Made by a program: the position numbers and the translations under genes. A DNA stretch of 59,507 nucleotides from a virus, in the IMG/VR virus record IMGVR_UViG_3300025098_000043, positions 1 to 59,507 of that record; one strand, given 5' to 3'. How positions within the stretch are numbered: position 1 is the stretch's first letter; the number at the start of each line of letters is the position of its first letter. Under the pieces are notes generated by a model. That model had not been told where the DNA came from. It ran no database searches and saw nothing but the letters and a program-made list of their open reading frames with translations. Below, piece by piece: positions 8,362 to 59,507 of the stretch.

Positions 8362-8369
8362 ACTTGGCG

Positions 8370-8397
8370 AGTATATTGAATTGACAGGCAATGTCAA
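8370..8397 (-). promoter_or_regulatory. Sigma70-like promoter for portal, predicted leaderless
   Basis: Minus strand TTGACA (8397-8392), 16 bp, TATACT (8375-8370). Eight bases separate the -10 box from the portal ATG at 8361, so transcription should start at or within two bases of the start codon. The -35 box overlaps the stop of the preceding gene. Confidence 0.75.
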
Positions 8398-16529: not shown

Positions 16530-16942
16530 GCGAGAAGAAATATTCCAAAAAGTATCTTGATGCCCTCTTCGAGACTAAGATCAAGAGGCTCAAAGGTCAG
16601 CCGACTTACGTTCGTGATCACGTTAGGGCCATCCTAAGTGAGACAGCGAAAGAGTATAACCTGACGCACCCCATTGAGTTGTTTACTAACTCTAGGGACA
16701 TGATGTATGTTGCGCCTCGGCGGATCTCAGTCGCCTTAGTGAGAGATAAGCTGGGCTTTTCTTATACTACTCTGAGTAATCTAATCGGATACAAGAACCA
16801 CACGGCTGTGATACACGCCGTTAAAATAGTGCAAGAGGAAATACAGAACAGCCCCGCCTTGTGCAGGACTGTTCGTAATATCCTTGACCGTGTCGATAAG
16901 ATACAGGCTGAGGCTGAAGAGGATCAGTCGTCTAGTCTGTGA
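16526..16942 (+). CDS. Orphan DnaA domain IV-like DNA-binding protein
   Basis: Residues about 65-125 of this 138-aa protein follow DnaA domain IV: RRISVALVRDKLGFSYTTLS, then IGYKNHTAVIHAVKIVQEEI, equivalent to the GGRDHTTVLHA signature and following helix. The AAA+ part of DnaA is absent. The first 60 residues are basic and helical. It could bind DnaA-box-like sites in the phage or host origin. The ATG overlaps the preceding membrane-protein gene, and the last 19 bases overlap the end of the giant gene on the other strand. No clear DnaA box was found nearby by eye. Confidence 0.75.
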   Translation: MSEKKYSKKYLDALFETKIKRLKGQPTYVRDHVRAILSETAKEYNLTHPIELFTNSRDMMYVAPRRISVALVRDKLGFSYTTLSNLIGYKNHTAVIHAVKIVQEEIQNSPALCRTVRNILDRVDKIQAEAEEDQSSSL

Positions 16943-22900: not shown

Positions 22901-25900
22901 TTAACCACATCATTCTTTAGAAAGTTTTTGACGTTCTGCTCTGGAGCATAGGCGTTGAAGTCTTTAAGACCAAACCCAGCTAACATGTCGGACAGTGCCT
23001 CTATGCGATCTCCTTTTTTAACACTTTCATCGAAGTCCACCCTACTGAGCAGAGCCTTTACCCCACGACTTACTTGGGCGGGAGTTAGATCTTCGATTTT
23101 CTTACCTTTAGATTGTTTATCATTATCGGTTAAAATATCCTGACGTATCTTGAATAAGTTAAGTAGAAGTTCGTATTCGTTTTCAGCCTCATTAACTACT
23201 GACGGGATACTAAAGTTGGTCTCGATATCAAGGCGATCAAAAGAAGATCTCTTAGAAGAGTAAAGTAGTCCTCTAATTGTTTTTACCGCCCTATCCATAG
23301 CTTTGGCATCTTTTGACGGTGGTGTGACTTTTTTAACGAAAGCTGCGACAGGACTTATGGCGTCTGCAAACTTCTGCTGAGTCTTATCAGACGCGGTGAT
23401 TGGTTTCCCTGTTTGTCTGTCGGTTACAGAAACACCTAAAGGTAGGATAAACTTTTCATCCGGTCTGATAAACTTGATTTGAGACAGCCTTCTAGCCCTA
23501 TCAAAGTTGTATGCAAGCTCCGTGTATCGGATCTCTTTTAATAGAGAAACATTTTGAGATGGGTATTTTTTGTGGGGAGCTACAATCGTGTGTAGTTTCC
23601 CTGTCTTTACATCGAATCCATCTCTGAAAGAAGGGTTCAACAATACACTATCTCTATACTCTTTTGGTATAGTGATGGGTATGTTCCTCGACAACATCTC
23701 CAACATAGTAACAGGATCGTTGTTGAAGACCCCAGCTCCGTCTCTAGTTAGTAACCCTTTAACAGCCAATGATGATCTCTTTCCTGTTTTAGGATTATAG
23801 TGCATCACCTTTTTACTCTTAGTAGAGAATGTCTCAAGCGAAGCTTTTGCCTTATCAGTAGGTTCAAGGACGGGGAAGCGGTCGTAGATTTTTCTAGCTA
23901 GAGCCTCGGATACGTCGCGCCTGTTATGGTTTGAAAGGTCAACGCCATACGTAGATTGAGTAGCAAAGGACACTGGAAAACCTCGGACAACGAGATCGAG
24001 AACTTGATCAGCTACTTCCCGTTCATTTGTAGACAGAGTGATCTTACCATCTTCGTCGGTAACATCTTCTGTTTTGATGTTCTTCGACAAGAAAGCTTTC
24101 TCATTGTAGAAGTCTACCGAAGACTTAGATTCGGGAGTGGTGTAGAATGGATCTCTAGCCTTCCGAACCTTCCGGTTCTGTAACTTAATTTTCTTAGCAG
24201 CTTTCTTAGTTGTCTTCTTAGCTGCTTTCTTAGCTGTCGCTGTCTTTATAGCAGCTTTCTTAGCTATCGCTGTCTTTCTAGCAGCTTTCTTAGCAGCTTT
24301 CTTAGCAGCTTTCTTAGCAGCTTTCTTAGCTATCGCTGTATTTCTAGCTGCTTCCTTAGCTTCTTGCTCCTTAGCAGGTTTCTCTTCAGGAGTTGCCTGA
24401 GCCGCTTCGGCTTCAGCTTCGATTTGAGCTGACTCTGCCTTAGCTAAGGCAGCTTCAATTTTTCTAAGTTCCTGAGCCTCTATCTTAGTCAGCTCAGCCT
24501 CTCGCTGTTGTTGACCTTCCTGAACGATTCTTTCTTCTATCGAGGGATAATCAACAACTTCGTCCGCATAAAAATCATCATCAAGTTCTTCTAGAACTAT
24601 TGAGTTTTCTGCAGCTCGCTCGTTGATAACATTGTTGCTCTCTCTCTTTGTTTGATCAGGATCGCTTAGTGTTTCTTCTACAAACTTACTATCACCTTCC
24701 ACTTCAGGTGCAGCTTCTGTAACTTCGGGTGCAGCTTCTGTAACTTCGGGTGCAGCTTCTGTAACTTCGGGTGCAGCTTCTGTAACTTCAGGCGCAGCTT
24801 CTGTAACTTCAGGCGCAGCTTCTGTAACTTCAGGCGCAGCTTCTGTAACTTCAGGCGCAGCTTCTGTAACTTCAGGCGCAGCTTCTGTAACTTCAGGCGC
24901 AGCTACCATCTCACGCATAGGAGTCCTGAAAATCCTTTCAAGTACAGCCGCTGAAACGGGGCTATTATTATCCTTTAGGTTTTTCGACGCACTCTGGGCA
25001 ACGTCAGAAACCATCCTATCAACCTGTGATAAGTTGACTCCTCTCTTCTGACGCAAAGACCTACCAAAACGCTGGACAGCAGGCGCACCTGCTCCCAACG
25101 CTCCACCTAACACAGCTGCGTGGAACGTCTGTCCCAATCTTTCAAACATTGGAGTGTCCTGATCCAATGCGGCATCTTCGACGAACGAGTTTACAAACTC
25201 GTCTAGACCTTCTTCGACAGCTTCGTTACCAGCGTCACGCCCTATTGCTTTAACAACATCTGCCGCTCTGGATATATTTCGTCTAGACCTCTTTGTTATA
25301 GCCGCTGAAGCCATGCCCGCTTTCTTAGCAGACTCTGCGATGCTCTTTTTAAGAGCCGCTTTAACATTTGCATCAAGGTTAGTTTTGTTCGTGACGTTCG
25401 ACATCTTGCCGACCACTGAAGTCATATCGCGGAAAGTCATCCCGCGAAGCAGGGCGTCATCAAGACCGCCCCTGCCGAGTGCTGAGAATCCACCAGTAAT
25501 AATTCCGGTGATGGCTCCACTCATCATGCCTGCTCCTAAAGCTTTGTCGCGAATCTCTTCGTCTGACATATCTGTATCAGACCTAAGAGCATTGGTGATC
25601 GCCCCATAGGTAGCAGCACTTGATCGAGTTGCCGCCGGAATAGCAGCAGCACTTGAAATACCTGCTTTACGGACGATTTCGCTGTTGAATGTTTTCAAGA
25701 CATCCATCGTCAGGTCACCGTGGCCTTCTTTAACTGCGATGTTAATCGCGTCAGAGAGTTTACCTTGATACTTAGCTCCTTTGATTCTGAATACAGACCT
25801 TGGAACACTCTTAACTACGTGGTTGACGTAAGATTTAGTGACTGTCTTAGCCACTGCAACGGAACCAGACTTCGCTGCAACGTAAGCAGCTCCTCCTGTC

Positions 25901-28482: not shown

Positions 28483-29628
28483 TTAAACGTTCCCGTATTG
28501 TTTCACTTGCTCATAAGGTTTAGGAGACTTTTTGTATGACCGTAGGATGTCGTCCAAGAGAGACCGAGTCTTTTCAGCACGTTCGGCTGAAGCCATAGAC
28601 TGTAGAACGTCTCGTTGTCTGTCGGATTGAGAAGTAATTGAAGGTCGATTCTTACCCATCTGGCCTGCTTGTGCTAGTAATGGATTTACAAGAGCATCAA
28701 CTTTAAGCCCCTTACGTTTAGCTAGCCGAGCCATTCGGGCAGCTTTATTAATCATAAGAGTTTCAGGGCTAGTGATTGATCGGCTTTCACCTGCTGCTCC
28801 AGTCAAAGAATTACGTGCTACGAAAGGTTTCCCAGCTGCTCTATCTTGCTGGGCGAGTCTAACTTTCTGATCATAAGCACCTAACCCACCACCTAGTTTC
28901 CCTTCAAACCTCTGAAGGTAACCTAGTTCTTTCTCAGTTGCTCTATCTTTAATCAAATCTTCTCTTGAGAAAGCTTTCTTCATCTCATCTTTAGTGAGGT
29001 TAGCTTTGCCTGACTCACCTTTTTCAAAGAGTTTTTCTTGTGCGGCTTCATCTAGCATACCACCTTTAGATAGCTTTTTGGCTTCTTCCATCAAACCTAC
29101 CCTTGCCTGCTTCTTCTGCATTGCGGGTTGTTGTGCAATGTCACCGAGAAGTTTACTCTTTTCTTCTTGCGGCATTGAGGTATCAGCTATCGTTTGCTTA
29201 CGTAGCTGCCCTAGTTCCAAAAGATCTCTTTCGTAGTCTCCCTTTTTTTCTACGCCTGCTTGATCTAAAGCTTGGAAGCCTTTGTCGTAAGCGTCCATAA
29301 CAGGTTCTTCTGCGGGTGCGCCTACAGCACCAGTAGCTCCAATCGGGCCTACTTCACCTAAGCCACCAGAATCACCTAATCCTCCGGTTTCACCAAAGTT
29401 TTCGCTGCGCTTCTTCTCTTCCTCCGAATTTTGTAATCCTCCGGTTTTACCAAAGTTTTCTCTGCGATTCTTCTCTGCCTCCGAATTTTGTAATCCTCCG
29501 GTTTTACCAAAGTTTTCTCTGCGATTCTTCTCTTCCTCCGAATTTTGTAATCCTCCGGTCTGCCCTAATCCTTGAGGCTTTCCTTGAGCAAGGCGTTTAG
29601 CAGCCTCTTTTTTTTGTCTCTCAGTCAT
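28483..29628 (-). CDS. Helical protein with N-terminal repeats (381 aa)
   Basis: ATG at 29628 lies two bases after the preceding stop; a TTG at 29637 is less likely. Residues about 20-80 hold three copies of a 19-residue unit, TGGLQNSEEEKNRRENFGK-like, followed by a Gly/Pro-rich part (GPIGATGAVGAPAEEP). The remainder is charged and helical. It is probably an internal virion protein by its place between terminase and the giant gene. No enzymatic motif was found. Confidence 0.6.
   Translation of the reverse strand: MTERQKKEAAKRLAQGKPQGLGQTGGLQNSEEEKNRRENFGKTGGLQNSEAEKNRRENFGKTGGLQNSEEEKKRSENFGETGGLGDSGGLGEVGPIGATGAVGAPAEEPVMDAYDKGFQALDQAGVEKKGDYERDLLELGQLRKQTIADTSMPQEEKSKLLGDIAQQPAMQKKQARVGLMEEAKKLSKGGMLDEAAQEKLFEKGESGKANLTKDEMKKAFSREDLIKDRATEKELGYLQRFEGKLGGGLGAYDQKVRLAQQDRAAGKPFVARNSLTGAAGESRSITSPETLMINKAARMARLAKRKGLKVDALVNPLLAQAGQMGKNRPSITSQSDRQRDVLQSMASAERAEKTRSLLDDILRSYKKSPKPYEQVKQYGNV
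29389..29560. repeat. 57-bp tandem repeat in the 381-aa gene
   Basis: Three units of 57 bp encode a 19-residue Q-N-S-E-E-E-K motif. The first two are almost identical at the DNA level. Confidence 0.85.
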
Positions 29629-29630
29629 GG

Positions 29631-29924
29631 TTACCAAAGTTTCTTACAGGCCCAGTATCTAGCCGTTGTTTTGTCTTTTGCAGTTTTGCAGTTGTGCCTA
29701 GCGCGGAAATTAGCTCTACGCTTAGGGTTCTTATGTTTCGTGAAATCACTGTAGTCGCGGTGGCCGAAGCCAACTTTCTTTATTTTCTCGCCCTCTTTAC
29801 CTAAAACGACAAATTTTTTCTTCGATCCTTTAGGCGCGCGCTTAGGTTTATTAAAACCAGCATAAGTCTCGCCATGATACTGGATTCGCCCAGACGGCAA
29901 GCGTTTGAATCGTTTAGTCGCCAC
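29631..29924 (-). CDS. Small basic protein of a marine-phage family
   Basis: The likely start is GTG at 29924 (97 aa), since TTG at 29960 is the -35 box of a promoter. The C-terminal half (KNPKRRANFRARHNC, then AKDKTTARYWACKKLW) matches a small conserved family found in marine phages and algal viruses (DUF5754-like, from memory). Its function is unknown; Arg/Lys and paired Cys suggest nucleic-acid or metal binding. It starts the 381-, 317- and 3517-aa operon. Confidence 0.7.
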   Translation of the reverse strand: MATKRFKRLPSGRIQYHGETYAGFNKPKRAPKGSKKKFVVLGKEGEKIKKVGFGHRDYSDFTKHKNPKRRANFRARHNCKTAKDKTTARYWACKKLW

Positions 29925-43121: not shown

Positions 43122-43772
43122 TCATGCGTTAAAGTATTCGACAATCGCTTGTGCATATACGTCGGCTAGTAGTGAGTGCTTTGAGTCAAAGAGAATCCAT
43201 TCCTTCGGGGAACTTCCGAAGAAAGGCTCGCAGATCACGGCAGGTGGTGGGACGCTCCGCAAGAATCCAGCCCCACGTCCGCTCGACTCGATTGCTTTTA
43301 CGCCTCTATCTTTCTGCACCTTGAAAGTTTCCGATTGGGCTTTACTAAAACACTCGGCTAAACGGCGTCCGTTGTTGCTGGTGTGGTAGTAGAGATACTC
43401 GTAGCCCTCTGCTTTCGAGCTAGAGTAGCTGTTGAAGTGCAGCTCGATGGCGATGTCGCACTTTTCTTTTGCTACGCTCTGTGCAATCCAGTCCATAGCG
43501 CGGCTGTAGCTTTCTGACGGGTAGTCGTCAAAGACAACCGATTGTATTCCTTGGTGGCGTAGGTGGTTCTGCAACAGGTCTGCGACCTTCTTGTTGTAAG
43601 TCCACTCGTCCACACCGCCGACAGAGCTAGCTCCTTTATCACCGATCCGGCTGTGGCCGACACAAATAGCGACTTTTTTTAGCTTCTTTACTTTCTTTCG
43701 CCGCAAAGCTTTAGCCGCTTTGTAGGCGGCTATCAATTCAAGGATCTTGTCTAGTATTTCACTAGGCTTCAT
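43122..43772 (-). CDS. N-acetylmuramoyl-L-alanine amidase (endolysin)
   Basis: This 216-aa Amidase_3 protein has Zn ligands in VAICVGHSRIG (His near 39), DEWTYNKKVAD (Glu near 54) and IAIELHFNS (His near 111), and a catalytic Glu in ICEPFFGS. It would cut peptidoglycan at host lysis. The N-terminus is a short amphipathic, basic helix and not a clear signal peptide, so release would depend on the holins. The start overlaps the o-spanin candidate stop (ATGA). Confidence 0.85.
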   Translation of the reverse strand: MKPSEILDKILELIAAYKAAKALRRKKVKKLKKVAICVGHSRIGDKGASSVGGVDEWTYNKKVADLLQNHLRHQGIQSVVFDDYPSESYSRAMDWIAQSVAKEKCDIAIELHFNSYSSSKAEGYEYLYYHTSNNGRRLAECFSKAQSETFKVQKDRGVKAIESSGRGAGFLRSVPPPAVICEPFFGSSPKEWILFDSKHSLLADVYAQAIVEYFNA

Positions 43773-45458: not shown

Positions 45459-46133
45459 CTACCGCCAATCCTTGCATATCCCTAAGAAATCAGCATACTC
45501 CGTCAGTTGCTCTTTACCGCCGCCGACGAAGTGTAATATATGGTTGTTGGCGATAGCCCATTGGCGGTCGCCTACGTTACGTTGATTGTATTCCTCCCCG
45601 ATCCAAGTAATGTCAATACCCGCCTCTGCCGTACGCATATTTAAGAAATCTTGGTCGTAGGCGTAAGAGTCGGGATACGGCGGGTCCAAGTTAAGGGAGC
45701 AGAGAGCGTCCAAACGAAACAGTAATACTCCTGCGTTGAAATAGGGGTCGTCGATGCTGGAGGCGTTCTCGGTGCTGTCAGGGTAGTGTTCGGCGATCCA
45801 CTTCTTATACCTATCGTCTTTCGTTGTCCACGCTTGATCTAGAGCGCACACTAGGTCGCCTCTCGTTTCAAACAGGTTAGGGCAGCTCGGAAGAATCAAG
45901 ACATCGCAGTCCAACACCAACACTTCCTTGTAATAATCCTGCTCTCGAAACCGCTTCAGGAAGTCAACGAAAGCCCAGACGGGGTTGCCGTTATACGGCT
46001 TGCTCGACTCTTCAGGGAACCACTTCACCTCATGAAAGTCTGCTCCCACTTTGCTCGCATAGTCCCGCATGGACGCTATGGAAGCCGACGCCCAAGGCAT
46101 ACCTCCAATAGCGAATGTAACAATAAGTCTCAT
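45459..46133 (-). CDS. Glycosyltransferase, GT8-like
   Basis: This 224-aa protein from ATG 46133 (MRLIVTFAIGG) has the DxD-type VLDCDVLIL, then YFNAGVLLFRLD, DQDFLN and a C-terminal HFVGGGKEQ, in the order of GT8-type (glycogenin/LPS) sugar transferases. It would move a sugar from a nucleotide sugar using a metal. A longer version to 46232 is less likely. It is downstream of a GT25-like gene and two poly-serine virion proteins. Confidence 0.75.
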   Translation of the reverse strand: MRLIVTFAIGGMPWASASIASMRDYASKVGADFHEVKWFPEESSKPYNGNPVWAFVDFLKRFREQDYYKEVLVLDCDVLILPSCPNLFETRGDLVCALDQAWTTKDDRYKKWIAEHYPDSTENASSIDDPYFNAGVLLFRLDALCSLNLDPPYPDSYAYDQDFLNMRTAEAGIDITWIGEEYNQRNVGDRQWAIANNHILHFVGGGKEQLTEYADFLGICKDWR

Positions 46134-46185
46134 CGTCTGGATGGCTTTACAAAAACAATTATAGTTTGTCCACTCTTCATTTACA

Positions 46186-46857
46186 CTACCAAAACTGTAT
46201 ACCGTTTGTCTTACCACTGATGTTTGACACACCCGCCCGTTGTCCTACAATCCACTCTTTTGGGCAGTAAACTGGCCAATCCTTGCGGCGATGGGCCATT
46301 TCAAGTTGATGGTCGATATGTTTAATCGTGTTACGGTAGTCCGTCGCATACGATATATGGCGGTAAAACGACGTGAAAGTAGGCTGGTTAACGGCGTAGG
46401 CGTGCGTCCTGTTTACAGAATTACCAAGAATCACATTAGGAGACTCAGTAGGTGTAGGGTCACGGCGATGTTGACCGCCTAAATATATCTGCCCCCAATC
46501 CTCCGGCACGTCTTCCATGAACTCGTTAAGCTTCTCTAACGAATCGTTTTTGAAGATCACGTCGTCTTCTAACACCAATACGTTGTTCAGAGAGATGCTG
46601 TAGCGGTCATCTCTGGTATGGAGGACATCCTCCAGAATCCTTTGGTGCGAACGCAAGCAACCCCACGCTCCTCTGCCAGACCCCCAATCAGCCGGACAGG
46701 TTGTCCAGCCGCCAATAATCGCCGGATAGTAAATGACTTTGTCGTTGTCTGCCATTCTAGTCTCGTCCAGATGCTTCTTCGTCTCATCAAGGCGCTCCGG
46801 TCTATGGGCGCAGTTGATCACGTAAACGCGGTCAAACCAGTCCGTTAGGTTCTTCAT
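46186..46857 (-). CDS. Glycosyltransferase, GT25-like
   Basis: The product is 223 aa: VYVINCAHRPERLDET near residue 11, GAWGCLRSHQRILED (near 62) and NNVLVLEDDVIF (near 92) match the GT25 family (LOS or collagen sugar transferases), where VLEDD is the metal site. It starts within the stop of the 149-aa poly-serine gene and lies 52 bases before the GT8-like gene, so the pair is co-expressed. Confidence 0.75.
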   Translation of the reverse strand: MKNLTDWFDRVYVINCAHRPERLDETKKHLDETRMADNDKVIYYPAIIGGWTTCPADWGSGRGAWGCLRSHQRILEDVLHTRDDRYSISLNNVLVLEDDVIFKNDSLEKLNEFMEDVPEDWGQIYLGGQHRRDPTPTESPNVILGNSVNRTHAYAVNQPTFTSFYRHISYATDYRNTIKHIDHQLEMAHRRKDWPVYCPKEWIVGQRAGVSNISGKTNGIQFW

Positions 46858-47303
46858 GGGTTTCCATCTCCTTCAGATACTGAGGATGAACTTTTTGATG
46901 ATCCTGAAGAACTAGAACTAGAAGAACTAGAACTAGAAGAACTAGAACTAGAAGAACTAGAACTAGAAGAGCTAGAACTAGAAGAGCTAGAACTAGAAGG
47001 ACTACAAGGGGAATCATGAACGGTAACCTCTATGGTTACAGTAGATGAGGAAGACGAAGACGAAGACGAATTACTGCTCGTGTAAGTTCCCGAAGCATCA
47101 TTTTCACTGGAACCTCCCTCCCATTGCTGGAAAAACACATCGAGTATTATCCATTCCGAACTACCGTTCCAATAAAGGGTATAAGATGCAGCAGCAGTAT
47201 AATATTGAACGCTGTCGTCCCAATACAAGTCGATGGGGTCTCCGCTCACCCCATCGTCAGTGACGACGAGCCGCGCCCTACACTTTCCGTTCGGTGCCGC
47301 CAT
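46854..47303 (-). CDS. Poly-serine virion protein 2 (149 aa)
   Basis: A beta-rich N-terminal part (CRARLVVTDDGVSGDPIDLY, then SSEWIILDVFFQQWEGG) is followed by two serine runs, one of about 30 Ser (residues about 104-132) encoded by a 15-bp repeat. No membrane segment is seen. It starts directly after the stop of the 357-aa poly-serine gene and is linked to the GT25 gene (ATGA). It is probably a tail or fibre accessory protein. Confidence 0.6.
   Translation of the reverse strand: MAAPNGKCRARLVVTDDGVSGDPIDLYWDDSVQYYTAAASYTLYWNGSSEWIILDVFFQQWEGGSSENDASGTYTSSNSSSSSSSSSTVTIEVTVHDSPCSPSSSSSSSSSSSSSSSSSSSSSSSSSSSSSSSGSSKSSSSVSEGDGNP
46906..46995. repeat. 15-bp tandem repeat encoding poly-serine
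   Basis: Six units of GAAGAACTAGAACTA (two with G for A) encode five Ser each on the minus strand. Confidence 0.95.
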
Positions 47304-48377
47304 TTATTCTCTAGGATAAGCTGAGTTAATAAACCTCTCGTTAGCGATGAACTGCTCTTTACTACGCTCAGGCATGTCAAACCCTCTAAATCCTTTACGG
47401 GTTCCGGTAAGTTTCAAAGTTACTTTAGAAGGCCGTAAAAAAGATAAAGGCCACGCCGAAAGAATTACGTTGTTCTTCTCGACCACCGCTCCGACTGATC
47501 CGGCCCTGTCGCCAGAGATTCCTGTAACAGTCATAGAGTCCGGCTCACATACCGCTAAGAACCTGTCATCAATTCGGGTTACTGTATTGGCTCCTTCTAA
47601 TGGTATGTCTCTCATCACAAATTCAAAGAGAACCTCATTAGACTCCATCGTGAATAACGCGCCGTATCCTTTGTCATGCCAATCCATAGGCACAATAGCG
47701 GTGGATTTGTCAGAGCCAGATGAAGACGAAGACGAAGACGAAGACGAAGACGAAGACGAAGACGAAGATGAAGATGAAGATGAAGATGATCCAATGTCGC
47801 TTTGATTGACGGCAAAAGCTGTTAGCCAATAAACATCAGTCGAAATGTTTTGGTCTAGTGTTGCGATATCATTATCGTCTACTTTTCCGACCTTAACATA
47901 GAACTTCCCGCCGTTGGAATTAGGTAAACTTTGCTGTTCTGGGGGTTCGTCATTCTCGTCATCTCCTTTCAGTTCACACAAAGTTACACTGCCCGATGAA
48001 TCAGTTTCCCAATAAAGATAAACATTTCCGCGCCAATCTAACTCATAAAACTTGAAGCGGTTCTTAGCCGCGGCGAGGTTAGAGGGGATTATCGTTTGTG
48101 GGCTGGATAAACCAGTTTGAGACACTAACCCATCCGTATCAAATACCATTCTATTAATCTGATGTACGAGAACACCGAAGTAGATATGGATCTTGTTGTT
48201 AGGAGCAGGGCGTAGAGCAAACGGAAACGGCTTATAGGCTGGAGGTTCTGGGACAACTGAACCAAAAGGGGTATCGTCCGCGTCCGTAAGAGACACTGTA
48301 TAGTCACTCAAACCTTCGTCAGGCATCTCATAAGAGATAGGTGCTTCTATATCCAAGCTATTGTCTTCAGAACTCAT
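47304..48377 (-). CDS. Poly-serine virion protein 1 (357 aa)
   Basis: The start is ATG 48377 (MSSEDNSLD), overlapping the preceding stop (ATGA). An N-terminal beta-rich domain of about 185 residues (NKIHIYFGVLVHQINRMVF, then YELDWRGNVYLYWE) is joined by a run of about 23 Ser to a C-terminal domain (ALFTMESNEVLFEFVMRDI). The serine run is encoded by a 6-bp repeat, different from that in the 149-aa gene. It is probably part of the tail; the linker may be a glycosylation target, as two transferase genes follow. Confidence 0.6.
   Translation of the reverse strand: MSSEDNSLDIEAPISYEMPDEGLSDYTVSLTDADDTPFGSVVPEPPAYKPFPFALRPAPNNKIHIYFGVLVHQINRMVFDTDGLVSQTGLSSPQTIIPSNLAAAKNRFKFYELDWRGNVYLYWETDSSGSVTLCELKGDDENDEPPEQQSLPNSNGGKFYVKVGKVDDNDIATLDQNISTDVYWLTAFAVNQSDIGSSSSSSSSSSSSSSSSSSSSSSSSGSDKSTAIVPMDWHDKGYGALFTMESNEVLFEFVMRDIPLEGANTVTRIDDRFLAVCEPDSMTVTGISGDRAGSVGAVVEKNNVILSAWPLSFLRPSKVTLKLTGTRKGFRGFDMPERSKEQFIANERFINSAYPRE
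47722..47788. repeat. 6-bp tandem repeat encoding poly-serine
   Basis: About eleven units, GAAGAC then GAAGAT, encode alternating Ser codons on the minus strand. Confidence 0.95.
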
Positions 48378-50584
48378 GACGGTGGGTAGACAGTAGTTGT
48401 CTGCATTAACCAACCTCCTCTAAAAGGTTTTACTTCAGAGGAAGCTATATGAGGCTCCCAACTCGTGACGTTCGTCGCTCCTTTGGTATATATTGCATTA
48501 GTCGGTTCCCACGTCTCATCATTAGACCCCGTGCTAACTGTAAAGTTAACAGGCCCATGTAGTGTTGGGGGGATGTTTAAAGTAAATAGAGGATTCGTAA
48601 TTGAAATAGTTTCAGGTTCCGGCTTCTCCGCTGCTGCTAAACCAAATGGCTGAGTCGTACTCCAACTGATATCTACTACCGCCCTACACGGGCCTTGAAA
48701 CTTTCCTTTCTCGTATTGCACTCTAGGATAAGTCCTTGCGCCTCCTGAACGTAACTCCCAAACATCAAATTCTACTCCCGCCAATATTGGGGGGAAGTAA
48801 TAAGTAATAACAGTTTCATAACGAAGACGCGCACACCCAATTCCCTGACTCTGCTCTTCAGGACGATAGCTCTTATAATCGAAGCTAAGATCTATGGTTT
48901 GGAGTTGATAATTGTCGCTGTAGTAGTCGGCCACGTCTGTTTTAGCTGCCGTAGCTGCTGCATACTCTGCATCAACTCTAGTAAGTAATTCATTCAGATC
49001 TTTGAAGTTTTTCGGTGAACCAATAAATGGTCCTTTGCCGTTTGATCTCGCGACGACACCGAGTAGCACACACTCATCCCCTACGACAATAGTCGCAATA
49101 CTTCCAGAGTCCCCACCCTCTAGGGTATCGCTCCAATCGGTGTGTAAGTAACTTGTATCATTTAAAGTAAATTCTGTATAACTTGAGTCAGGGTTGTTAT
49201 GATCAAAGCTACCAAATTCTAAAGTCTGGACCTTCCGAATATGCGCGTTTTCATATTGATCAGTTGTCATCGCCAATACTATTTCCCCGCTCGATGACGG
49301 AGATGTCCAAGTAGCAGCACCTGTAAATTCATCAGTTTGAAAATATTGATAGCCGTCTTTAGGCAAAACTTTTACGACTTCAATAGAAGAAGGTAGATCA
49401 GAATCTAGTAGACCAACAGCATAGTCCCAATTATGAGAAGGCGCTCCCGTAGCGTCTGCGTGTGCTTCTATAGACAAAATTCTACGAGAATAGATCTCAC
49501 CATTCTTTGAACAAAAATAAACTATATCTCCATGCTCAAAACTGGCTTGGGTATTTGCTCTTTCCAAACGTCCGTCATAATATTGAGCATGGTTTGTAAA
49601 CAGTATGTGGCGAGGAGTTATGGCAACTCCACCAAATTGTTTTTGCTGCGACGCAGTTGGCCTGTCGTTCCAAGCTACAAAACCAGTAACCCCTTTTAAG
49701 TTATGCGCCCAACAGTTCGTATTGCGGGCGAGACTAGACGGAGCCGCATACGAACTGAACAAATTTAAAACATTACTAGATGGAGATCCGTCAGTTTCTT
49801 TTTTACCTGAAATAGCTGAATCAATAGATTGCCTAGCTACGGTTTGTAAATCAGATCGCATCCCCTCAGAAGGACACTTAACAACTTCTTTCTCTGTTAC
49901 TGCATACCAGTTATCGGACAACTGCTGAACTGTGCGGACCGTGCCGGAGTTCATGCCCCAGTATGCGTTGTCTGGCGCACCAGCTAAAGCTTCGATGGTA
50001 GACCCTGCTACAGCTTCTCCCTTATGATAAAGAATTTGCTTAGTCTCGTTTGTCGTCTGGAAGAATTCGTCAAAGTCTAGACGAGACAACGGAATCTTCT
50101 TCACGTAGACCCGTTGCTCGATAACATACAAGCCGTTTAGAATCTTGTCGTTAATAGGAATCTGTTTCCGTTGGGCTAGAACGTGCGTGCCACTGAACTT
50201 GCCTGTTGGAGTATCAGGCATCGCCGCTCCCATTGCAGGAACGGTAGAGCTAAACTCGCTACGACGGATTACGTAGTCGCGAGAAACAGCGTCAAACTTA
50301 GTGCCGCCGATATCAGCCTCACTGTAAGACCAGTTGTCGTTGTCCTGCTCTAGCTGATCAGCCGCATAGTAGTAACGGTAATATCTACTCTGCTCGTCCA
50401 CTGATTGGACGCTAACCAGTCGATGGTTTGGCCACTTTTTGTAGTCGGGGTGGCTAGACCCGTATTTAGGAACATCAGGCCCAACCCTCTCCGCATCAAC
50501 GGTTTCAAAAAAGAGGATGTCGTTAACATTCGGTGTAGGGAATGTAACGACTGACTGTCGTTGCGGGGAGGGATTAAGGGCCAT
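48374..50584 (-). CDS. Tail protein with an embedded trypsin-like serine protease
   Basis: This 736-aa protein has an N-terminal structural part, then about residues 270-540 with a complete chymotrypsin-type triad: His332 in ITPRHILFTNHAQ, Asp387 in HNWDYAVGLLDSDLP and Ser493 in EGGDSGSIATIV (GDSG). The C-terminal 180 residues are beta-rich. The same ITPRHILF...WDxxVGLLDSDLP pattern is, from memory, common in Verrucomicrobiota and Planctomycetota proteins. It leads the poly-serine, glycosyltransferase genes. It may cleave itself, virion proteins or host-surface proteins. Confidence 0.75.
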   Translation of the reverse strand: MALNPSPQRQSVVTFPTPNVNDILFFETVDAERVGPDVPKYGSSHPDYKKWPNHRLVSVQSVDEQSRYYRYYYAADQLEQDNDNWSYSEADIGGTKFDAVSRDYVIRRSEFSSTVPAMGAAMPDTPTGKFSGTHVLAQRKQIPINDKILNGLYVIEQRVYVKKIPLSRLDFDEFFQTTNETKQILYHKGEAVAGSTIEALAGAPDNAYWGMNSGTVRTVQQLSDNWYAVTEKEVVKCPSEGMRSDLQTVARQSIDSAISGKKETDGSPSSNVLNLFSSYAAPSSLARNTNCWAHNLKGVTGFVAWNDRPTASQQKQFGGVAITPRHILFTNHAQYYDGRLERANTQASFEHGDIVYFCSKNGEIYSRRILSIEAHADATGAPSHNWDYAVGLLDSDLPSSIEVVKVLPKDGYQYFQTDEFTGAATWTSPSSSGEIVLAMTTDQYENAHIRKVQTLEFGSFDHNNPDSSYTEFTLNDTSYLHTDWSDTLEGGDSGSIATIVVGDECVLLGVVARSNGKGPFIGSPKNFKDLNELLTRVDAEYAAATAAKTDVADYYSDNYQLQTIDLSFDYKSYRPEEQSQGIGCARLRYETVITYYFPPILAGVEFDVWELRSGGARTYPRVQYEKGKFQGPCRAVVDISWSTTQPFGLAAAEKPEPETISITNPLFTLNIPPTLHGPVNFTVSTGSNDETWEPTNAIYTKGATNVTSWEPHIASSEVKPFRGGWLMQTTTVYPPS

Positions 50585-50817: not shown

Positions 50818-51246
<429 letters not shown>

Positions 51247-51275: not shown

Positions 51276-54200
51276 TTAGCCCACTCTCCAGTTAGTCCCG
51301 TCAGAATACATTGGGCAGAAATTAGACCCTGACCCGACAGTAACTAATCCATGTGCTTGTGACACGCTATAGGAGGAGTCACTCACGAAGGCTCGTTGAC
51401 CCGCTGGCGAAGCTGACGGCAGCGTAGACACGGTGTAAACTTTGTGGGCGATAGTCCCTTCGACATGTAGTTTTGTAGCTGGACTCGTTGTCCCTATACC
51501 AACGTTTCCGTTAGCAGCTAAACGCATAGCTTCTGTGCTATCACCAGTAAGGAGCTTTAAGTAATTGCTAGCAGTTGTAGTACCAACAGACATAAAACTA
51601 TTATTAGGATCGTGCATTACAACTGCGCCAGTGGTGTCTCCTGTAGTTCCAAATACTAATTTTTGTTTCTGTGCGCTTCCACTACCTGTACCAATAAGTG
51701 ATATACCTCCTGCTACTGACGATTCAATAACCATTGTATCTGCTTCAGAATCAGGAGAGTATGAACCAGAAGTGCCATCTAGAACATTTAATTTGCCTTT
51801 TGGACTATCTGTTCCTATACCAACGTTGCCAGAAGTTTCCTGTATAAACAATCTAGTGTCATCTCCCGAATCACCTCCCACCGTTTCTTTTATGGAAAAC
51901 CCAACTCCCTTATTAACAAGTAAATCAAAAGCTAAATTGCTTGAGTCACTGTCTTCTAATCTTATCTTAGCTTCTCCAGTGTTTTTAACATGTAGCTGAA
52001 CCCCACTTGTCACAACATTAGATGTTGCGGAGTTTCCTATCATTTGCGCTCCAACAACTCTAAATTGACCGTTTACTTCAAGTTTACTTGCTGGACTAGT
52101 TGTTCCTATACCAACGTTACCGTTAGTAAGATCAATAGTTAGATTACTATTACTGTTAGCACTAGTGCTACCAATATACCCTCTTTGACTTTGAGTTCCA
52201 ACATACAAAGAATCAGCATTATCATTGATTCTAATATGAGCGTCAGAATCAGAAGACTCAAATCGTCCAACAGTATTTGATGATGTATAAGTATGAAGTA
52301 TATTTGTCGGACTAGTTGTTCCTATACCAACGTTGCCGCTCGAAGCGATACGCATTTTTTCAGAACCACCTGACTGAAATAGCATAATAGCTGTATTTCT
52401 AGCATTTAACGTCAGTGAACCACTACTAGATGAAATAGTTCCGTGTATTGATGAACCTGAATTAATATTTAAAGCTCCCCCAACATTTACACCACCTGTA
52501 AAACTTGAAGCTCCTGAGCCTGAGCATTGTATAACTCCCCCAACAGTTACGTTACCTACAAAATCAACTGATTTATTATGGCCATTAACGGTTTGATATG
52601 TACCTAATGTACCTCCATCTCTTACTCCAAAATTAACAATAGTGTTACTAGAATCACTTTCATTAATAATCCCAACATCTATTGCAAAACCTTCTCTCGC
52701 GCTAAAATTATGACCGTTTTCAGAGATACCCATTACAAACCTTACTTTTTCGTTTGTACCAGTACCTGAACCATAAGTCTTTTGGTTCATTAACCTAAGA
52801 GCTGTGAAATCACCATCTACAATCCCAGATGCTACCAATTTAGCATCTGGACTCGTCGTTCCTATACCAACGTTACCGTCAGTATTTACAAATAATTTTG
52901 TAGTCTCACCTCCAAAAGACGTTCCATAACCTAGCGACCAGTTTGCAGACTGATTTAAGCCTTGCCACCAGTAGTTAGAGCCTGTCGAGTAGTTGTTATA
53001 TTTAACAGCAACTTCTTCTGGAGTGCCTGTAGACGTTGATTCTAAAGTAAGGTAAACATCTGTAGTTTCAGCTAGATGAAGTTTTGTAGCTGGATAAATT
53101 GCTCCGATACCAACGTTACCAGCATTGGATACAGTTAAAGCTAATATATTATCAGTTAAATTTTGCCAATAGGTATTTGCATTATCTGAATGGAAGCCCC
53201 ATTTTTTTGCAGAAGCTCCTGTTCGTAGGTAAGCTATTGATACACTAGCTGCATTAGCTACTTCTAATGGATAAGAAGGACTAATTGTACCTATGCCAAC
53301 GTTACCGCCATTTAAATAAGAATTACCATTAGTATTTAAGTGAATTTTAGCTGTATTGCTAGTATTATAAGCAAGGTAATTAGCATTCCCGCTACTATCG
53401 TTATATAGTATATGTAATCTGTTTGTATTGTTATTAGCGTTAGCTTTACCTATTATAACACCTTGACCCGCACTTATGAAAAATGCATGTTCACCAGTCC
53501 AATCATTTTGAGCTTGTGTTCCGTGTCCACTAATAAAAATATCCCGTGTTGCAGTAGAGTAGACTTGGAGTTTAGCTGCTGGACTCGTTGTCCCTATACC
53601 AACGTTACCAGTGTTGGTTATTTTCATTTTCGGCAGACCAAAAGCTACTCCGAAATTTAATGAACCATCTCCATATCCATGACCTCCACCTGTTGAAGTT
53701 ATGTCCCAAGCAACTCCATTACTACCAGTATTATTAATTATAAGTGATGTATTTGCTCCACTACCAGTAATTCTAATACCGTCTGTGTTTCCTGAACCAG
53801 AATTAACTTCTAATTTTTTTGCTGGAGTCGTTGTTCCTATACCAACGTTGCCTGTGGTTAACACAGTCAGTAAACCTGCTTCTTCTACTTGGAAGGAAGC
53901 ATTTGTTGCAAGAGATGTTGTGCTAGGGACACCTATTGAAAATGGCCAATACCTTACACCTACTCTTCCCCCGTCCATAATGTAGAAAATTTCGTTATTA
54001 GAAAAGTCAGTTGTCTTAAAGGTCAGACCTGATGAGCCGCCAGCGCCCTTTAACCTTAACCTAGCGTCGGGATTAGTTCCCCCTACACCTATACCAACGT
54101 TACTGTTAGCATCAATAGTTAAACCTTCAATTCCGTTAGTAACTATTGAAAGTCTTGATGGCCCAGTAAATCCTTTATACCCATAATAATTACCCCCACC

Positions 54201-56141
54201 TGTATACAGATCATGGAATATAAATCCATCTTTAGCACCATTAGCCCCCGCTAGAACTCCACTGTCTTTAGCTAGTATATTGCCCGCAACTTCTAATTTT
54301 TCTGCTGGACTAACTGTTCCTATACCAACGTTACCACCGCTTAGGATGGTCATTTTCGTAGAATTATTAGCAACAATAGCTACTGATTGATTATCTAGAG
54401 TTCCAAATTGCCCAGTACCACTGGAAGCAGTTAAATATTTACCAAGATTGTTTTGTATTCTATTATTTGGAACATCAAACGTAATAGCAGTCGTTACCCC
54501 ATTTCTGAAATTCAAAACGCCGTTACCCCAAGAACCTCCTACTTGTATACCCGCCGTGTTGTTTGTAAAGTATAGACTTGAAGTCAATCCTATAGTACCA
54601 GAGACATGAAGTCTATACGCTGGACTCGTTGTTCCTATACCAACGTTGCCATCACCTTGAACTCTTAATATATTGTTATTACCACCCTCAGTGCCTATTG
54701 ATACAAAATCATTAGATGTTGCTGCTTGAATATATATTTCCCCATCGGTTCTTGATGAACGATAGGTTTCAGCATATATATGGTTAGACTTTATGTTACC
54801 TTGAACGTGTAATTTTTCGTCTACTGAGGTTGTTCCTATACCAACGTTGCCGCTATCTGAAAATATTACTGTTGGATTTGCGTTAGCACTATTGAAAAAA
54901 TTAAGGTCGCCATCAACACCAACTCCGATATCCCAACTTTCATTTGCTGAATCATTCTCTAAAATTCTTATAGCCCTATGTGAAGTATCTGAATTTATTG
55001 TTAATGGTCTATCAGGACTCGTTGTTCCTATACCAACGTTACCCGCAGAAGTAATCCGCATTTTTTCTGCCGCTGCGTTATTTAAAACAGGCGAGAAAGT
55101 AATCGCTACATCTTTATTGGCAGACGAAGAGAAATCTGCATTTTCTTTTACTGCTGAAATTGCTACTCCGTTTGCACGAAGATCTGGAGACATCCTTAAC
55201 GCAGAAGTCTGCGTGGTAGTATTACCTTGGTCGAGATTAAACAACTTAATTTCAGAAGCACCGCCTGTTTGCGTATCTCGTATATCTAGAATACTGGTTG
55301 GATTATTTGTTCCTATGCCAACGTTGCCAGAAGAATTGATGCTTAATCGTGTATTATTACCTACAACGTTATTGTCGCAAATTTCAAATGTGCTAGAATT
55401 AGTTCCTAAAGAAAAAGTATTTGATGATGAAGCGAATTGTATTTGAGGGTCACTGCCGCTTGAATTTATCTCTATCGATCCACTACCTCCAACATCACGG
55501 GTAAATTTGGCTAATGGACCTCCTTGACCTCCTCCAGTTACCAAAAGACCTGTCCCAAGAGAAGCGTTATCGTCGATATGAAGCTTCGCTTGAGGGTGTG
55601 TTGTTCCTATACCAACGTTACCTGCTAGAGCGGTGCTGCCTTTAATAAATATGCCACTTGTTCCCCCAGCATACCCCAAGTTTAAATCGGTATTGCCATA
55701 AACAAGACTTGTAACTACATAACCATTAAAAATTGCATTACCACCTGCTGACATATCGAGGGTAAGAGCTGTGAAGGAAGAACCACCATCATTACCTTTA
55801 AATTTTATGTCTTTGTCAGAAGCTCCGTTTGATATGTTTAAGTCGCCAGTACCGCTAATAACATTCCCGTTACTACCATCGTGTACAAACCTCAAACCAC
55901 TAGTACCAGACATATAAATATTTTTGCCTGTCCCTAAGTTTATATCACCAGTCATATTACCACCTGCTAGTGGTAAGTAGGATGTGCTGTTGAAGGCGTT
56001 AGTTCCTAAAGCTCTCTTGCCGACTACATCAGCACCAGCGATCATCAACGCCGTAACTTGTGAACCGCTATAAGTGGGTAAACTTGGTAGAGTTAAATTT
56101 GCGTTGACCTTAAGATCTGAATTTATGTTCCTTGTTGGCAT
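51276..56141 (-). CDS. Tail fibre with NVGIGT repeats (1621 aa)
   Basis: About sixteen copies of NVGIGTTSPxxKL punctuate the protein every 60-140 residues. They separate beta-rich segments, in the manner of trimeric fibre or intramolecular chaperone-type adhesins in marine bacteria and phages. The N-terminus (NSDLKVNANLTLPSLPTYSG, then SQVTALMI) repeats the SPYSGSDVTALMI theme of the first fibre, so the two fibres probably share an attachment mode. The C-terminus (ASPAGQRAFVSDSSYSVSQA) is a common fibre end. It starts 10 bases after the first fibre's stop. Confidence 0.85.
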   Translation of the reverse strand: MPTRNINSDLKVNANLTLPSLPTYSGSQVTALMIAGADVVGKRALGTNAFNSTSYLPLAGGNMTGDINLGTGKNIYMSGTSGLRFVHDGSNGNVISGTGDLNISNGASDKDIKFKGNDGGSSFTALTLDMSAGGNAIFNGYVVTSLVYGNTDLNLGYAGGTSGIFIKGSTALAGNVGIGTTHPQAKLHIDDNASLGTGLLVTGGGQGGPLAKFTRDVGGSGSIEINSSGSDPQIQFASSSNTFSLGTNSSTFEICDNNVVGNNTRLSINSSGNVGIGTNNPTSILDIRDTQTGGASEIKLFNLDQGNTTTQTSALRMSPDLRANGVAISAVKENADFSSSANKDVAITFSPVLNNAAAEKMRITSAGNVGIGTTSPDRPLTINSDTSHRAIRILENDSANESWDIGVGVDGDLNFFNSANANPTVIFSDSGNVGIGTTSVDEKLHVQGNIKSNHIYAETYRSSRTDGEIYIQAATSNDFVSIGTEGGNNNILRVQGDGNVGIGTTSPAYRLHVSGTIGLTSSLYFTNNTAGIQVGGSWGNGVLNFRNGVTTAITFDVPNNRIQNNLGKYLTASSGTGQFGTLDNQSVAIVANNSTKMTILSGGNVGIGTVSPAEKLEVAGNILAKDSGVLAGANGAKDGFIFHDLYTGGGNYYGYKGFTGPSRLSIVTNGIEGLTIDANSNVGIGVGGTNPDARLRLKGAGGSSGLTFKTTDFSNNEIFYIMDGGRVGVRYWPFSIGVPSTTSLATNASFQVEEAGLLTVLTTGNVGIGTTTPAKKLEVNSGSGNTDGIRITGSGANTSLIINNTGSNGVAWDITSTGGGHGYGDGSLNFGVAFGLPKMKITNTGNVGIGTTSPAAKLQVYSTATRDIFISGHGTQAQNDWTGEHAFFISAGQGVIIGKANANNNTNRLHILYNDSSGNANYLAYNTSNTAKIHLNTNGNSYLNGGNVGIGTISPSYPLEVANAASVSIAYLRTGASAKKWGFHSDNANTYWQNLTDNILALTVSNAGNVGIGAIYPATKLHLAETTDVYLTLESTSTGTPEEVAVKYNNYSTGSNYWWQGLNQSANWSLGYGTSFGGETTKLFVNTDGNVGIGTTSPDAKLVASGIVDGDFTALRLMNQKTYGSGTGTNEKVRFVMGISENGHNFSAREGFAIDVGIINESDSSNTIVNFGVRDGGTLGTYQTVNGHNKSVDFVGNVTVGGVIQCSGSGASSFTGGVNVGGALNINSGSSIHGTISSSSGSLTLNARNTAIMLFQSGGSEKMRIASSGNVGIGTTSPTNILHTYTSSNTVGRFESSDSDAHIRINDNADSLYVGTQSQRGYIGSTSANSNSNLTIDLTNGNVGIGTTSPASKLEVNGQFRVVGAQMIGNSATSNVVTSGVQLHVKNTGEAKIRLEDSDSSNLAFDLLVNKGVGFSIKETVGGDSGDDTRLFIQETSGNVGIGTDSPKGKLNVLDGTSGSYSPDSEADTMVIESSVAGGISLIGTGSGSAQKQKLVFGTTGDTTGAVVMHDPNNSFMSVGTTTASNYLKLLTGDSTEAMRLAANGNVGIGTTSPATKLHVEGTIAHKVYTVSTLPSASPAGQRAFVSDSSYSVSQAHGLVTVGSGSNFCPMYSDGTNWRVG

Positions 56142-56151
56142 CTTTAAAAAA

Positions 56152-59100
56152 TTAAGCGTAAGTGTTGTTGATGGAGCTTCCGAATGCTTCTACTGATACT
56201 CTTGGTGTGTAGCTCTTTGTCCCTGATCTAGATTTGAATGTAAAGGTTATGGTGGACCCGTTAGCTGATGCGGTTACATCAAAATCGTTTGTTCCTTCGT
56301 CGATTACCTTTTGGGTGTTCCATGTCCCACTAACATTGTAACAACTGTAAACAATCTTTTGGTAATCTCCAGTATGCCCGAAGCAGGTGAACGTGAAGCC
56401 AGCAGAAGCTCCATTACCCGCTGGGAAGCTAGTTAATCCAGCCACTGCATAGCCAGTCGTGGTGAGGGAACCAGCAGACTTATGGTATGTGACCTTACCA
56501 CCAGCGCGGATACCGCCGTTGACATCTAGTTTGTAAGACGGGCTACTTGATCCTACGCCAACTCTATCGTATGCGCTATCCACAAACAGCGTGTATGAAT
56601 CAAATTGAACGTCGCCTGTTATTGATAAAGTGCCTTGGTCATTTAAAAGCGAACCTCTAACTCGTAAGGCATTTTGGACATAAGCTCCTCCACCAGAACT
56701 AACATAAAAATAGCCTTGCGGAACTGTTACTACACCACTATCTGTAACTTGCAGAAGTTCAGTATTAGAACTATTCCTAACTCGTAGAGCCGCCCCACTT
56801 CCTGTCCCTGATCCAATGATTTCTAATTTGGCATCAGGGTCAGTTACTCCTATACCGACGTTGCCTCCCCCCTTTATTCTTAAACCCTCTATGGCTGTAT
56901 CTGCCGTTGCAGTTTTAAAAACTATATCTCCATTAGCATTATTCCAAGTGTTACTTATTATTAAGTTTCCTGTAGAAGCTGCGTCGTAATCAATAACACC
57001 TCTGTATGCAGCGGTATTGCCAATATAGATTGTCCCATTAGCACTGTTGTTTGATCCCACTCTATCACTCCACCCAGAGACTTGTAATTGAGCGCCAGTT
57101 GAATTTGTTACACTTAATTGACCACTATAAATAACTACTTCTCCAGTGGAACTAATACGCATTCTTTCTGTACCTGATGTAGAGAAACCTAAAGCATTTG
57201 CAGCGGCACGGAACATCCCGTTATCAGGATCTCCGTAAAAACTGTGTGTTGGTGCAGCCGCTGAACCGTTGGTCGTACCTATTACACCTTGAACATGTAA
57301 TAATGTGCTGGCATCAGGGTTAGTCGTTCCTATGCCTACTCTGCCGCCATCCCCATCAACCGTTAGTCTATCAGCCCCACCTGCGAAGACCCTGATGTCG
57401 TTGCCATTCCTATAAATGTATTCTCCTTCAGAAGTTGATGATCCAAAGACAAATCCAGCAGGGCCGCCAGAATAAACATTACCAGATGAGACTGTGCTGC
57501 CCGTTAGGGACACACCCCAAGTTTCTGTTTGCAGCTTCTTGGAATTGTCGAAGTAAAGTTCAACAGCACCATTAGCTATCGCTACAAGCATATTTTCGTT
57601 GGTACTCGAAAGTAAAGCTGTTGCACTATTAGATCTTATTCTTAAGTCACCAGCGCCTACCTCATCTATGTAACTATGTGAAGCATCATGGTAGATTGCT
57701 AAGTCATAACTTGCCCCCATCCGAATACGCCCATTATCAGGCATATCCAAATAACCATTCCCATACAACTGGATTCCGTCAATCGTGGTGGCGAACTTCT
57801 TATTACTGTCATAATATAAATCTACAGAACCTCCATCTTTAAACTCTGCTTGAAGGCTGCTCATATCAGCATCATAAATTCTTGTAGCAGAACCTGATAT
57901 TCTTAACTCGCCAGTTCCAACGTCTTTTATATAGCTATCTGAACCATCATGGTAGATTTGTAAATCGTTACCATGACCGAAAGTTATCCTTCCGAAACTA
58001 GTGCTAGACGAATCAAGTAGTTGAATATTACCAGCAACATAAATACCGCTAGATGTTGTCTCTAATTTTGCAGAACCATTATGGTATAAGTTTACCGCAC
58101 CACCTTGATGAGCGACCAACATAGCAGAAGAATCTGCTCCCAGTAATCTTAAGCTGTTGCTTTGTATATTTAAATTACCTGTCCCAGTATCTTGAATGTA
58201 GGAATTACTACCATCATGGAATATCTGGAGATCCTGACTTGCGCCAAGTTTGAGCTTGGCTGTGTCATTAGCAATTAAGAGATCTTTGTAGGCTTGAAGA
58301 GTCGTTGAGCCTCCATCTATTCTTAAGTATTCTGTTATGCCACCAAATCCATCATCTGATTTAAAAATAATATCAGCATCATTAGTAAACTGTCTTATTT
58401 CTATATTACCAGAAAAGTTATCGAAATAACTTATACCATTATGATAAATTCTAAAATCATGGCCGTTACCAAATACTAAATGCGACGAATCAGGAAATAC
58501 TGTAAACGGGAAAGCACCGCCAGCACCCCCCTGTAACTCAAAATAATTTTCATAACCACCAGAACCATTATCGTTTTGGAAGATAATACTCTTATCGTCA
58601 GCAAGGTTTCTAATGTAGATGTGTCCTGTAGTATTCTCTAAATATGAGTTTGTGCCGTCATGGAAGATTCCTAAATCCCCATTGTTTCCATATTTAGAAG
58701 CGACACCATCTACAAATCTAATTTCTCTTGATGCATACATTCTTGCATCGCCACCATCTAGTCGTAAGTATTCTGTTACACCACCTGAGCCGTCATCAGA
58801 TATAAATTGTATATCCCCGTCATCAGCGTTGTTATAAATCTGTAGGTTGCCTGTTGTGTTATTTAGAACACTATTAGAACCATCATGGTAAACCTGTAAG
58901 TCGTTGCTCGCACCGAAAAATAGAATACCTTGTCCGCTACCAGTCGCGTCAGGTAGTTTGATATTACCTGCAAAAGTCGCAGTGTTTGCAGCGTCTAATG
59001 TTAAAACATCACTTCCATTTGTTGCAAAAACAATTTTATCATTAGTGGAAGGAAATTGTATATAAGTATTTGTATCTCCAGTATGTATTAATTTTTCGGC

Positions 59101-59507
59101 AATACTTACATTACCTGTAAACGTAGGGCTAGCTAAGTTAGCTTTGAGATTCAAAAACCCATTCGTTTCAGTCTTTGTATAGTAATCTCCTAAAGCACTC
59201 GCAGCAGCGAAAGCACTCGTAGCACTAAAAGCGGCAGTACCTAAAACCCTTTTCCCAACTACGCCGTTACTCTTAATCATCAAAGCGGTTACATCTGAGC
59301 CGCTGTAAGGAGATAAAGCCGTAAGAGTTAAGTTAGGCGCTGTAGGCGTACCTGTAAATACAGGGCTAGCTAAGTTAGCTTTGAGATTCAAAAACCCATT
59401 CGTTTCAGTCTTTGTATAGTAATCTCCTAAAGCACTCGCAGCAGCGAAGTCTGAAGTAGCACTAAAAGCGGCAGACCCTAAAACCCTTTTCCCAACTACG
59501 CCGTTAC
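56152..59507 (-). CDS. Tail fibre, C-terminal part (begins at 1147)
   Basis: The frame is open from 59507; an apparent start at 59391 is an internal Leu codon. The part shown is 1117 codons. It repeats D-L-Q-I-Y-H-D-G-S-N-S-Y with a following G-N-L six times between residues about 150 and 600, then GVGIGTTNPDAS and NVGIGVTDPDAKL units, and ends in a globular region (GYAVAGLTSFPAGNGASAGF, CFGHTGDYQKIVYSCYN) that may be the receptor-binding or trimer-forming tip. The N-terminal part is at 1-1147. Confidence 0.85.
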   Translation of the reverse strand, partial: NGVVGKRVLGSAAFSATSDFAAASALGDYYTKTETNGFLNLKANLASPVFTGTPTAPNLTLTALSPYSGSDVTALMIKSNGVVGKRVLGTAAFSATSAFAAASALGDYYTKTETNGFLNLKANLASPTFTGNVSIAEKLIHTGDTNTYIQFPSTNDKIVFATNGSDVLTLDAANTATFAGNIKLPDATGSGQGILFFGASNDLQVYHDGSNSVLNNTTGNLQIYNNADDGDIQFISDDGSGGVTEYLRLDGGDARMYASREIRFVDGVASKYGNNGDLGIFHDGTNSYLENTTGHIYIRNLADDKSIIFQNDNGSGGYENYFELQGGAGGAFPFTVFPDSSHLVFGNGHDFRIYHNGISYFDNFSGNIEIRQFTNDADIIFKSDDGFGGITEYLRIDGGSTTLQAYKDLLIANDTAKLKLGASQDLQIFHDGSNSYIQDTGTGNLNIQSNSLRLLGADSSAMLVAHQGGAVNLYHNGSAKLETTSSGIYVAGNIQLLDSSSTSFGRITFGHGNDLQIYHDGSDSYIKDVGTGELRISGSATRIYDADMSSLQAEFKDGGSVDLYYDSNKKFATTIDGIQLYGNGYLDMPDNGRIRMGASYDLAIYHDASHSYIDEVGAGDLRIRSNSATALLSSTNENMLVAIANGAVELYFDNSKKLQTETWGVSLTGSTVSSGNVYSGGPAGFVFGSSTSEGEYIYRNGNDIRVFAGGADRLTVDGDGGRVGIGTTNPDASTLLHVQGVIGTTNGSAAAPTHSFYGDPDNGMFRAAANALGFSTSGTERMRISSTGEVVIYSGQLSVTNSTGAQLQVSGWSDRVGSNNSANGTIYIGNTAAYRGVIDYDAASTGNLIISNTWNNANGDIVFKTATADTAIEGLRIKGGGNVGIGVTDPDAKLEIIGSGTGSGAALRVRNSSNTELLQVTDSGVVTVPQGYFYVSSGGGAYVQNALRVRGSLLNDQGTLSITGDVQFDSYTLFVDSAYDRVGVGSSSPSYKLDVNGGIRAGGKVTYHKSAGSLTTTGYAVAGLTSFPAGNGASAGFTFTCFGHTGDYQKIVYSCYNVSGTWNTQKVIDEGTNDFDVTASANGSTITFTFKSRSGTKSYTPRVSVEAFGSSINNTYA
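59126..59507. repeat. 237-bp tandem duplication in the fibre gene
   Basis: 59126-59270 matches 59363-59507 at an offset of 237 bp with a few differences, and 59265-59372 matches 1-108. The assembly therefore begins and ends inside a repeated unit; the true copy number could be larger. Confidence 0.85.

Follow-up and report, generated by a model that had tools for sequence, protein, structure and literature searches.

Enzymes of phage tails are known mainly as cutters of sugar or cell wall, and the locus described here raises the question of what a complete trypsin-like domain does inside a protein whose gene adjoins those of tail fibres. The window – the whole stretch of DNA analysed, 59,507 nucleotides of IMG/VR record IMGVR_UViG_3300025098_000043 – encodes this protein, here referred to as carrier A, on its minus strand. 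An initial annotation recognized the domain, placed it in a podovirus tail protein, considered such a fold unusual in that setting, and suggested that it could mature the virion or cut surface-layer protein on the host. The features discussed are as follows.

48374..50584 (−), carrier A, a 736-aa protein with an internal trypsin-like module; complete homologues at L001-L005, L026 and L028
49877..50584 (−), N-terminal part of carrier A, residues 1-236, delimited by identity among module bearers and insert-less relatives
48875..49852 (−), inserted module, about residues 245-570, from an N-terminal helix segment to the end 'YQLQTIDLS'
48965..49759 (−), trypsin-like core, residues 276-540, from fold match and conservation
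49589..49591 (−), presumed catalytic His332, from family conservation
49424..49426 (−), presumed catalytic Asp387, from family conservation
49106..49108 (−), presumed catalytic Ser493, in GGDSGS, from family conservation
48377..48835 (−), C-terminal part of carrier A, residues 584-736, mostly beta by low-confidence prediction
51276..56141 (−), tail-fibre-like protein upstream of carrier A (PHROG tail fiber, E 1.2e-58)
56152..59391 (−), a second tail-fibre-like protein, beyond the first (PHROG matches to virion structural and tail fiber families, best E 2.5e-60)
47304..48413 (−), conserved 369-aa neighbour with a reading frame overlapping the end of carrier A

The carrier A frame begins with an ATG, and the start codon and first residues are common to all 12 rows of an alignment of relatives. 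The window protein has the catalytic triad in trypsin order – H332 within TNHA, D387 within WDYAVGLLD and S493 within GGDSGS – in just the contexts initially annotated, and these residues together with the predicted fold bear out the description of a complete trypsin-like domain. A second histidine, H326, is 95% conserved; as the catalytic residue it was rejected in favour of H332, the better conserved of the two and the one that falls on the histidine of the trypsin AAH motif in alignment.

Structure prediction and a fold search, which had been proposed for residues 270-540, were run on residues 263-544. The AlphaFold2 model, built from a nine-row alignment, is of middling confidence (mean pLDDT 65.7, pTM 0.71), and its comparison with known structures confirms, at the level of a predicted model, the double beta-barrel trypsin fold of clan PA. 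The first match by VIA-align is chymotrypsin (1dlk_B; Z 18.1, rmsd 3.1 Å over 193 residues). A Z of 8 or more was reached by 996 of 1000 chains; identity to proteases of the trypsin/chymotrypsin type across the fold of the predicted model is about 13-14%. Foldseek returned 839 PDB matches at E ≤ 0.001 (best E 2.3e-7), the best 50 of which are all trypsin-fold entries as judged by title. The top match in a viral library is a protein without characterisation from an uncultured Caudovirales phage (E 2.2e-9, 21% identity). The full-length model of carrier A is poor (pLDDT 48.6).

Name libraries do not recognize the protein. Scans of the window protein against Pfam and of carrier A against PHROGs gave no match, nor did NCBIfam for any of 10 proteins including the window protein, nor a PDB sequence search with the window protein alone; a PDB search with a narrow profile (A2) gave insignificant rows only, including the potyvirus NIa protease at E 0.56. 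Against PF00089 (Trypsin), one (L034) of 10 domains from cellular or prophage-like members scored, at 17.8 relative to a cut-off of 20.6. A profile of six cellular or prophage-like family members (A8) does reach PDB trypsins (E 9e-4), and the resulting alignment sets the family histidine and serine on their AAH and GDSG motifs. Searches of the open-access PMC literature listed no title or abstract on trypsin-like domains of phage tail proteins. The fold itself is old. Its occurrence in putative structural proteins of phages, as a module that can be exchanged and in a family to which the tests here gave no Pfam, NCBIfam or PHROG name, is undescribed in the open-access PMC literature searched. 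The initial view that the domain is unusual in phage tail proteins holds for named databases and fails for nature: a scan based on profile A8 and two peptide patterns, which miss other members, found at least 100 viral loci, some beside tail, virion or lysis genes.

The family carries a signature of its own, RN..CW ... (T/S)PRH.....H ... GDSG ... YQL..IDLS. Most of the viral members for which both ends are covered have it at the C-terminus of a protein about 330-450 aa long; in a minority the domain stands alone or is internal. Across 38 family domains the position of H332 is histidine in 37, that of D387 is aspartate in all 38, and that of S493 is serine in 37 of 37, one row being partial. 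Of the best 80 viral loci, 79 have the whole triad, and the remaining one (L151) is cut off ahead of the histidine. When 118 rows were thinned to 74, all below 80% identity, S493, D387 and H332 ranked first, second and third in conservation among 245 columns. From these conservation patterns the protease is probably active.

Some members depart from the consensus. In L003, NDSG replaces GDSG; in L004, glutamine replaces His332 and LDSG replaces GDSG, so at least this member looks inactive, which suits a role in binding. The main rival to a protease is indeed that the trypsin fold acts as an adhesion domain with its catalysis lost or incidental, and we regard this as unlikely, if the least so of the alternatives. 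The fast divergence of the module and its seeming exchange (below) are reminiscent of receptor-binding tips, chains of the Umb1 particle are among the PDB matches listed by Foldseek, and in UmbA1-6 of Streptomyces coelicolor a trypsin fold with an incomplete triad serves for binding, as described in PMC11062931. Across the whole family, however, no columns are better conserved than those of the triad, whereas the triad of UmbA is incomplete. Binding alone may be the role of L004.

The domain is also found in cells. Widening of the narrow family by a genome scan led to the Verrucomicrobiia MAG G002, the genome of L029, and of 387 genomes of its phylum, Verrucomicrobiota, 26 have a match to the domain at E 1e-6 or better. 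Some of these members are apparently exported proteins or lipoproteins; L029 (7896-8729, +), L049 and L054 have lipoprotein-like signals at the frame start and go unrecognised by Pfam. Five Verrucomicrobiota neighbourhoods were inspected, of which two (L069 and L070) look chromosomal and three are phage tail or virion modules, with a tape measure in L067, a tail-fibre-like gene in L068, and capsid, head protease and tape measure genes in L071. The L071 genes at 6269-7627 (+) and 7624-8820 (+) are adjacent in a prophage-like module, one encodes the trypsin-like protein, and both have secreted-type starts. The carrier A homologue L028 sits on an Opitutae MAG contig, which may be a binned phage. 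The presence of the domain in these genomes, in proteins that are in part apparently exported or lipoproteins, would suit a phage module that counters exported host proteins of the same family, or extracellular antiphage proteases, as decoy or competitor; a decoy has no need of the catalysis that is kept, and we consider this explanation highly improbable.

The setting of carrier A is that of a tail region. The upstream genes have PHROG tail fiber matches, and the PHROG matches of 28 window proteins include tail-fibre, terminase, endolysin and replication families. Tape-measure, sheath and tail-tube matches are lacking among these 28, with a single baseplate row at E 0.1, and the profile is compatible with a podovirus. 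The genes at 1147-1506 (−) and 56152-59391 (−) lie at opposite ends of this record and are adjacent in relatives, which makes it probable that a circular or permuted genome was cut between them. The 1621-aa fibre-like protein (51276-56141, −) has many GNVGIGTTSP-like repeats, and a 142-aa protein with a PEPEPEP run (50818-51246, −) sits between the fibre and protease genes; a similar run lies ahead of the protease domain in viral locus L112. Long poly-serine runs are found just downstream of the protease gene, in the proteins of 46854-47303 and 47304-48413 (−), and also ahead of the protease domain in viral locus L145. Two glycosyltransferase-like genes (45459-46232 and 46186-46857, −; Pfam family 8, at a score slightly under the cut-off, and family 25) stand inside the structural block, the second being kept in relatives with varying partners. 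Elsewhere in the window are a 3517-aa reading frame with one weak, unnamed PHROG match (16924-27477, −) and a 384-aa protein with repeated FGKTGGLQNSEEEK-like units (28483-29637, −).

Other members have comparable neighbours. In L021 the gene ahead of carrier A encodes a fibre protein that weakly matches collagen, and ahead of that lies a gene for a 123-aa protein resembling a fibre-assembly PHROG. In a survey covering 115 of 154 listed neighbours of representative viral members, the best 25 of 124 families included tail fiber, minor tail, tail assembly, virion structural, portal, adaptor, endolysin and amidase families, each in two to three members. The adjacency of some family members to endolysin or amidase genes, and the secreted-type start of the prophage-like L071 member, would suit an enzyme that is not part of the virion or is associated with lysis, and that is set free when infection ends. 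In the window the domain is instead embedded in a conserved protein that follows the fibre genes, and the endolysin (43122-43772) is several genes away; we judge a lysis role very unlikely.

The whole carrier A architecture is common to seven relatives (L001-L005, L026 and L028), with best-segment identities to the window protein of 59-87% for L001-L005 and 64% for L026. Five further relatives (L021-L025) have an insert-less carrier A of 413-423 aa, in which a short stretch stands in place of residues about 238-583; a search for this form in named phages found none. The N-terminal part (residues 1-236) has a mean identity of 74% between bearers and these five. Bearers and non-bearers are split by one change in trees of the carrier A parts, and the borders of the insert are those of free-standing family members, including the C-terminal YQL..IDLS peptide.

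The module diverges much faster than the protein that carries it, mean identity among eight bearers being 84% in the N-terminal part, 79% in the C-terminal part and 53% in the core. Substitution rates were computed for six pairs. In L003/L004 the carrier has dS of 0.32 (N-terminal part) and 0.45 (C-terminal part), and the module is saturated in dS with a dN of 0.62; L005/L028 show the reversed pattern, with dS of 0.13 in the module versus 0.71 in the N-terminal part. These contrasts, read from rates on few pairs, suggest that modules have been exchanged by recombination between related phages.

A second site of the domain was found in the same group. In G397, G399 and G400, in which carrier A is insert-less, a family domain lies at the C-terminus of a different 387-aa protein, carrier B, about 6-7 kb downstream; in G390, G392, G393 and G395, which have the insert in carrier A, carrier B is an open frame of 113-120 aa without the domain. 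Whole-record searches did not find carrier B in G000, G389, G391 or G394. The G394 record begins inside carrier A and G398 stops inside carrier B, and both are uninformative for domain presence. In the eight records with both carriers seen, the domain is on A only in four, on B only in three, on neither in one and on both in none, a reciprocal pattern that, given the relatedness of these records, is only suggestive. Of 24 carrier B loci in a wider set, five have the domain. The notion that relatives without the insert have no protease was dropped: three of the five carry a distant domain on carrier B, one record of 56 kb has none, and one record is incomplete. The record with none, G396 (56,248 bases), has both carriers, so the domain is dispensable.

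The carrier B domains are 24-26% identical to the window domain and are placed among other viral proteins in the tree. A single clade of carrier A and carrier B domains was weakly rejected (AU p 0.031, from a quick tree), and one uniting carrier A modules with the domain of MW202510 (described below) was not (AU p 0.134). The distance between the A and B domains and their separation in the tree make it most likely that the domain entered related phages on two or more occasions and in two different proteins.

These observations bear on virion maturation, in which the protease would act, as the particle assembles, on the protein that carries it or on structural proteins nearby. The domain does lie within a putative structural protein and beside other structural genes. 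Against this, carrier A exists without it in five relatives, the 56-kb record wholly lacks it, and the carrier varies between viruses, so a fixed structural substrate is unlikely; carrier A moreover matched no PHROG head maturation protease family, and the domain found weak, unnamed PHROGs only, at E up to 1. Of the two roles first suggested, maturation is thus disfavoured, and we think it quite improbable, because the carrier exists without the domain; the cutting of surface-layer protein would be the kind of role that fits best.

The explanation we prefer, with a modest lean in its favour, is that carrier A is a virion protein of the tail-fibre region with an accessory, exchangeable trypsin-like protease module that cuts host-surface protein at adsorption. 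Carrier A would be placed on the virion, judging by gene order alone, and the module would be folded on the outside of the particle. It would be catalytically active, as its conservation indicates, and would cut a protein of the host cell or its surroundings – a surface protein, a protein capsule or a host exported protein. The setting, the diversity of the module and the analogy with depolymerases would place this cutting during adsorption, and a target that varies from host to host would agree with the sequence diversity and with the presence on different carriers.

A broader proposal, tentative and at slightly under even chances, is that a large unnamed family of active trypsin-like proteases serves uncultivated phages, many of which probably infect Verrucomicrobiota, as a mobile module for display that has been fitted independently to different virion proteins, is exchanged between related phages, and digests a protein barrier or receptor at adsorption. 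A common trypsin of the tail region would indicate that in bacteria that have been little studied protein surfaces act as barriers or receptors, and would name about 100 viral proteins left blank by current libraries. Natural pairs with and without the domain at two carrier sites, together with the His-less L004 allele, make the role directly testable.

With trypsin and chymotrypsin (clan PA, S1-type) the family has in common the fold, predicted here, the His-Asp-Ser order and the GDSG motif; it differs in lying below Pfam and NCBIfam recognition, in its own signature, and in being inserted in a phage protein. UmbA of the Streptomyces umbrella toxin particles likewise has a trypsin fold displayed on a particle, whereas here the fold is predicted and display is proposed from gene order; as described in PMC11062931, UmbA has an incomplete triad and binds a partner, whereas the triad of the present family is near-invariant and complete in the window protein. 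The same domain with a complete triad is present in a 411-aa hypothetical protein (UOF78081.1) of Podoviridae sp. ct3Et533 from Manatee Spring (MW202510), for which a search of IMG/VR found no more relatives. Its gene adjoins a beta-helix-like 'lyase' gene in a structural module; unlike the window protein it is encoded by a stand-alone gene, and the two are 23% identical over the matched part. Tail depolymerases and tailspikes are virion appendages that enzymatically clear host-surface polysaccharide. The role proposed here is alike, and the module would, if the proposal is correct, be their protein counterpart: its fold is of the protein-cutting type, whereas theirs act on polysaccharide.
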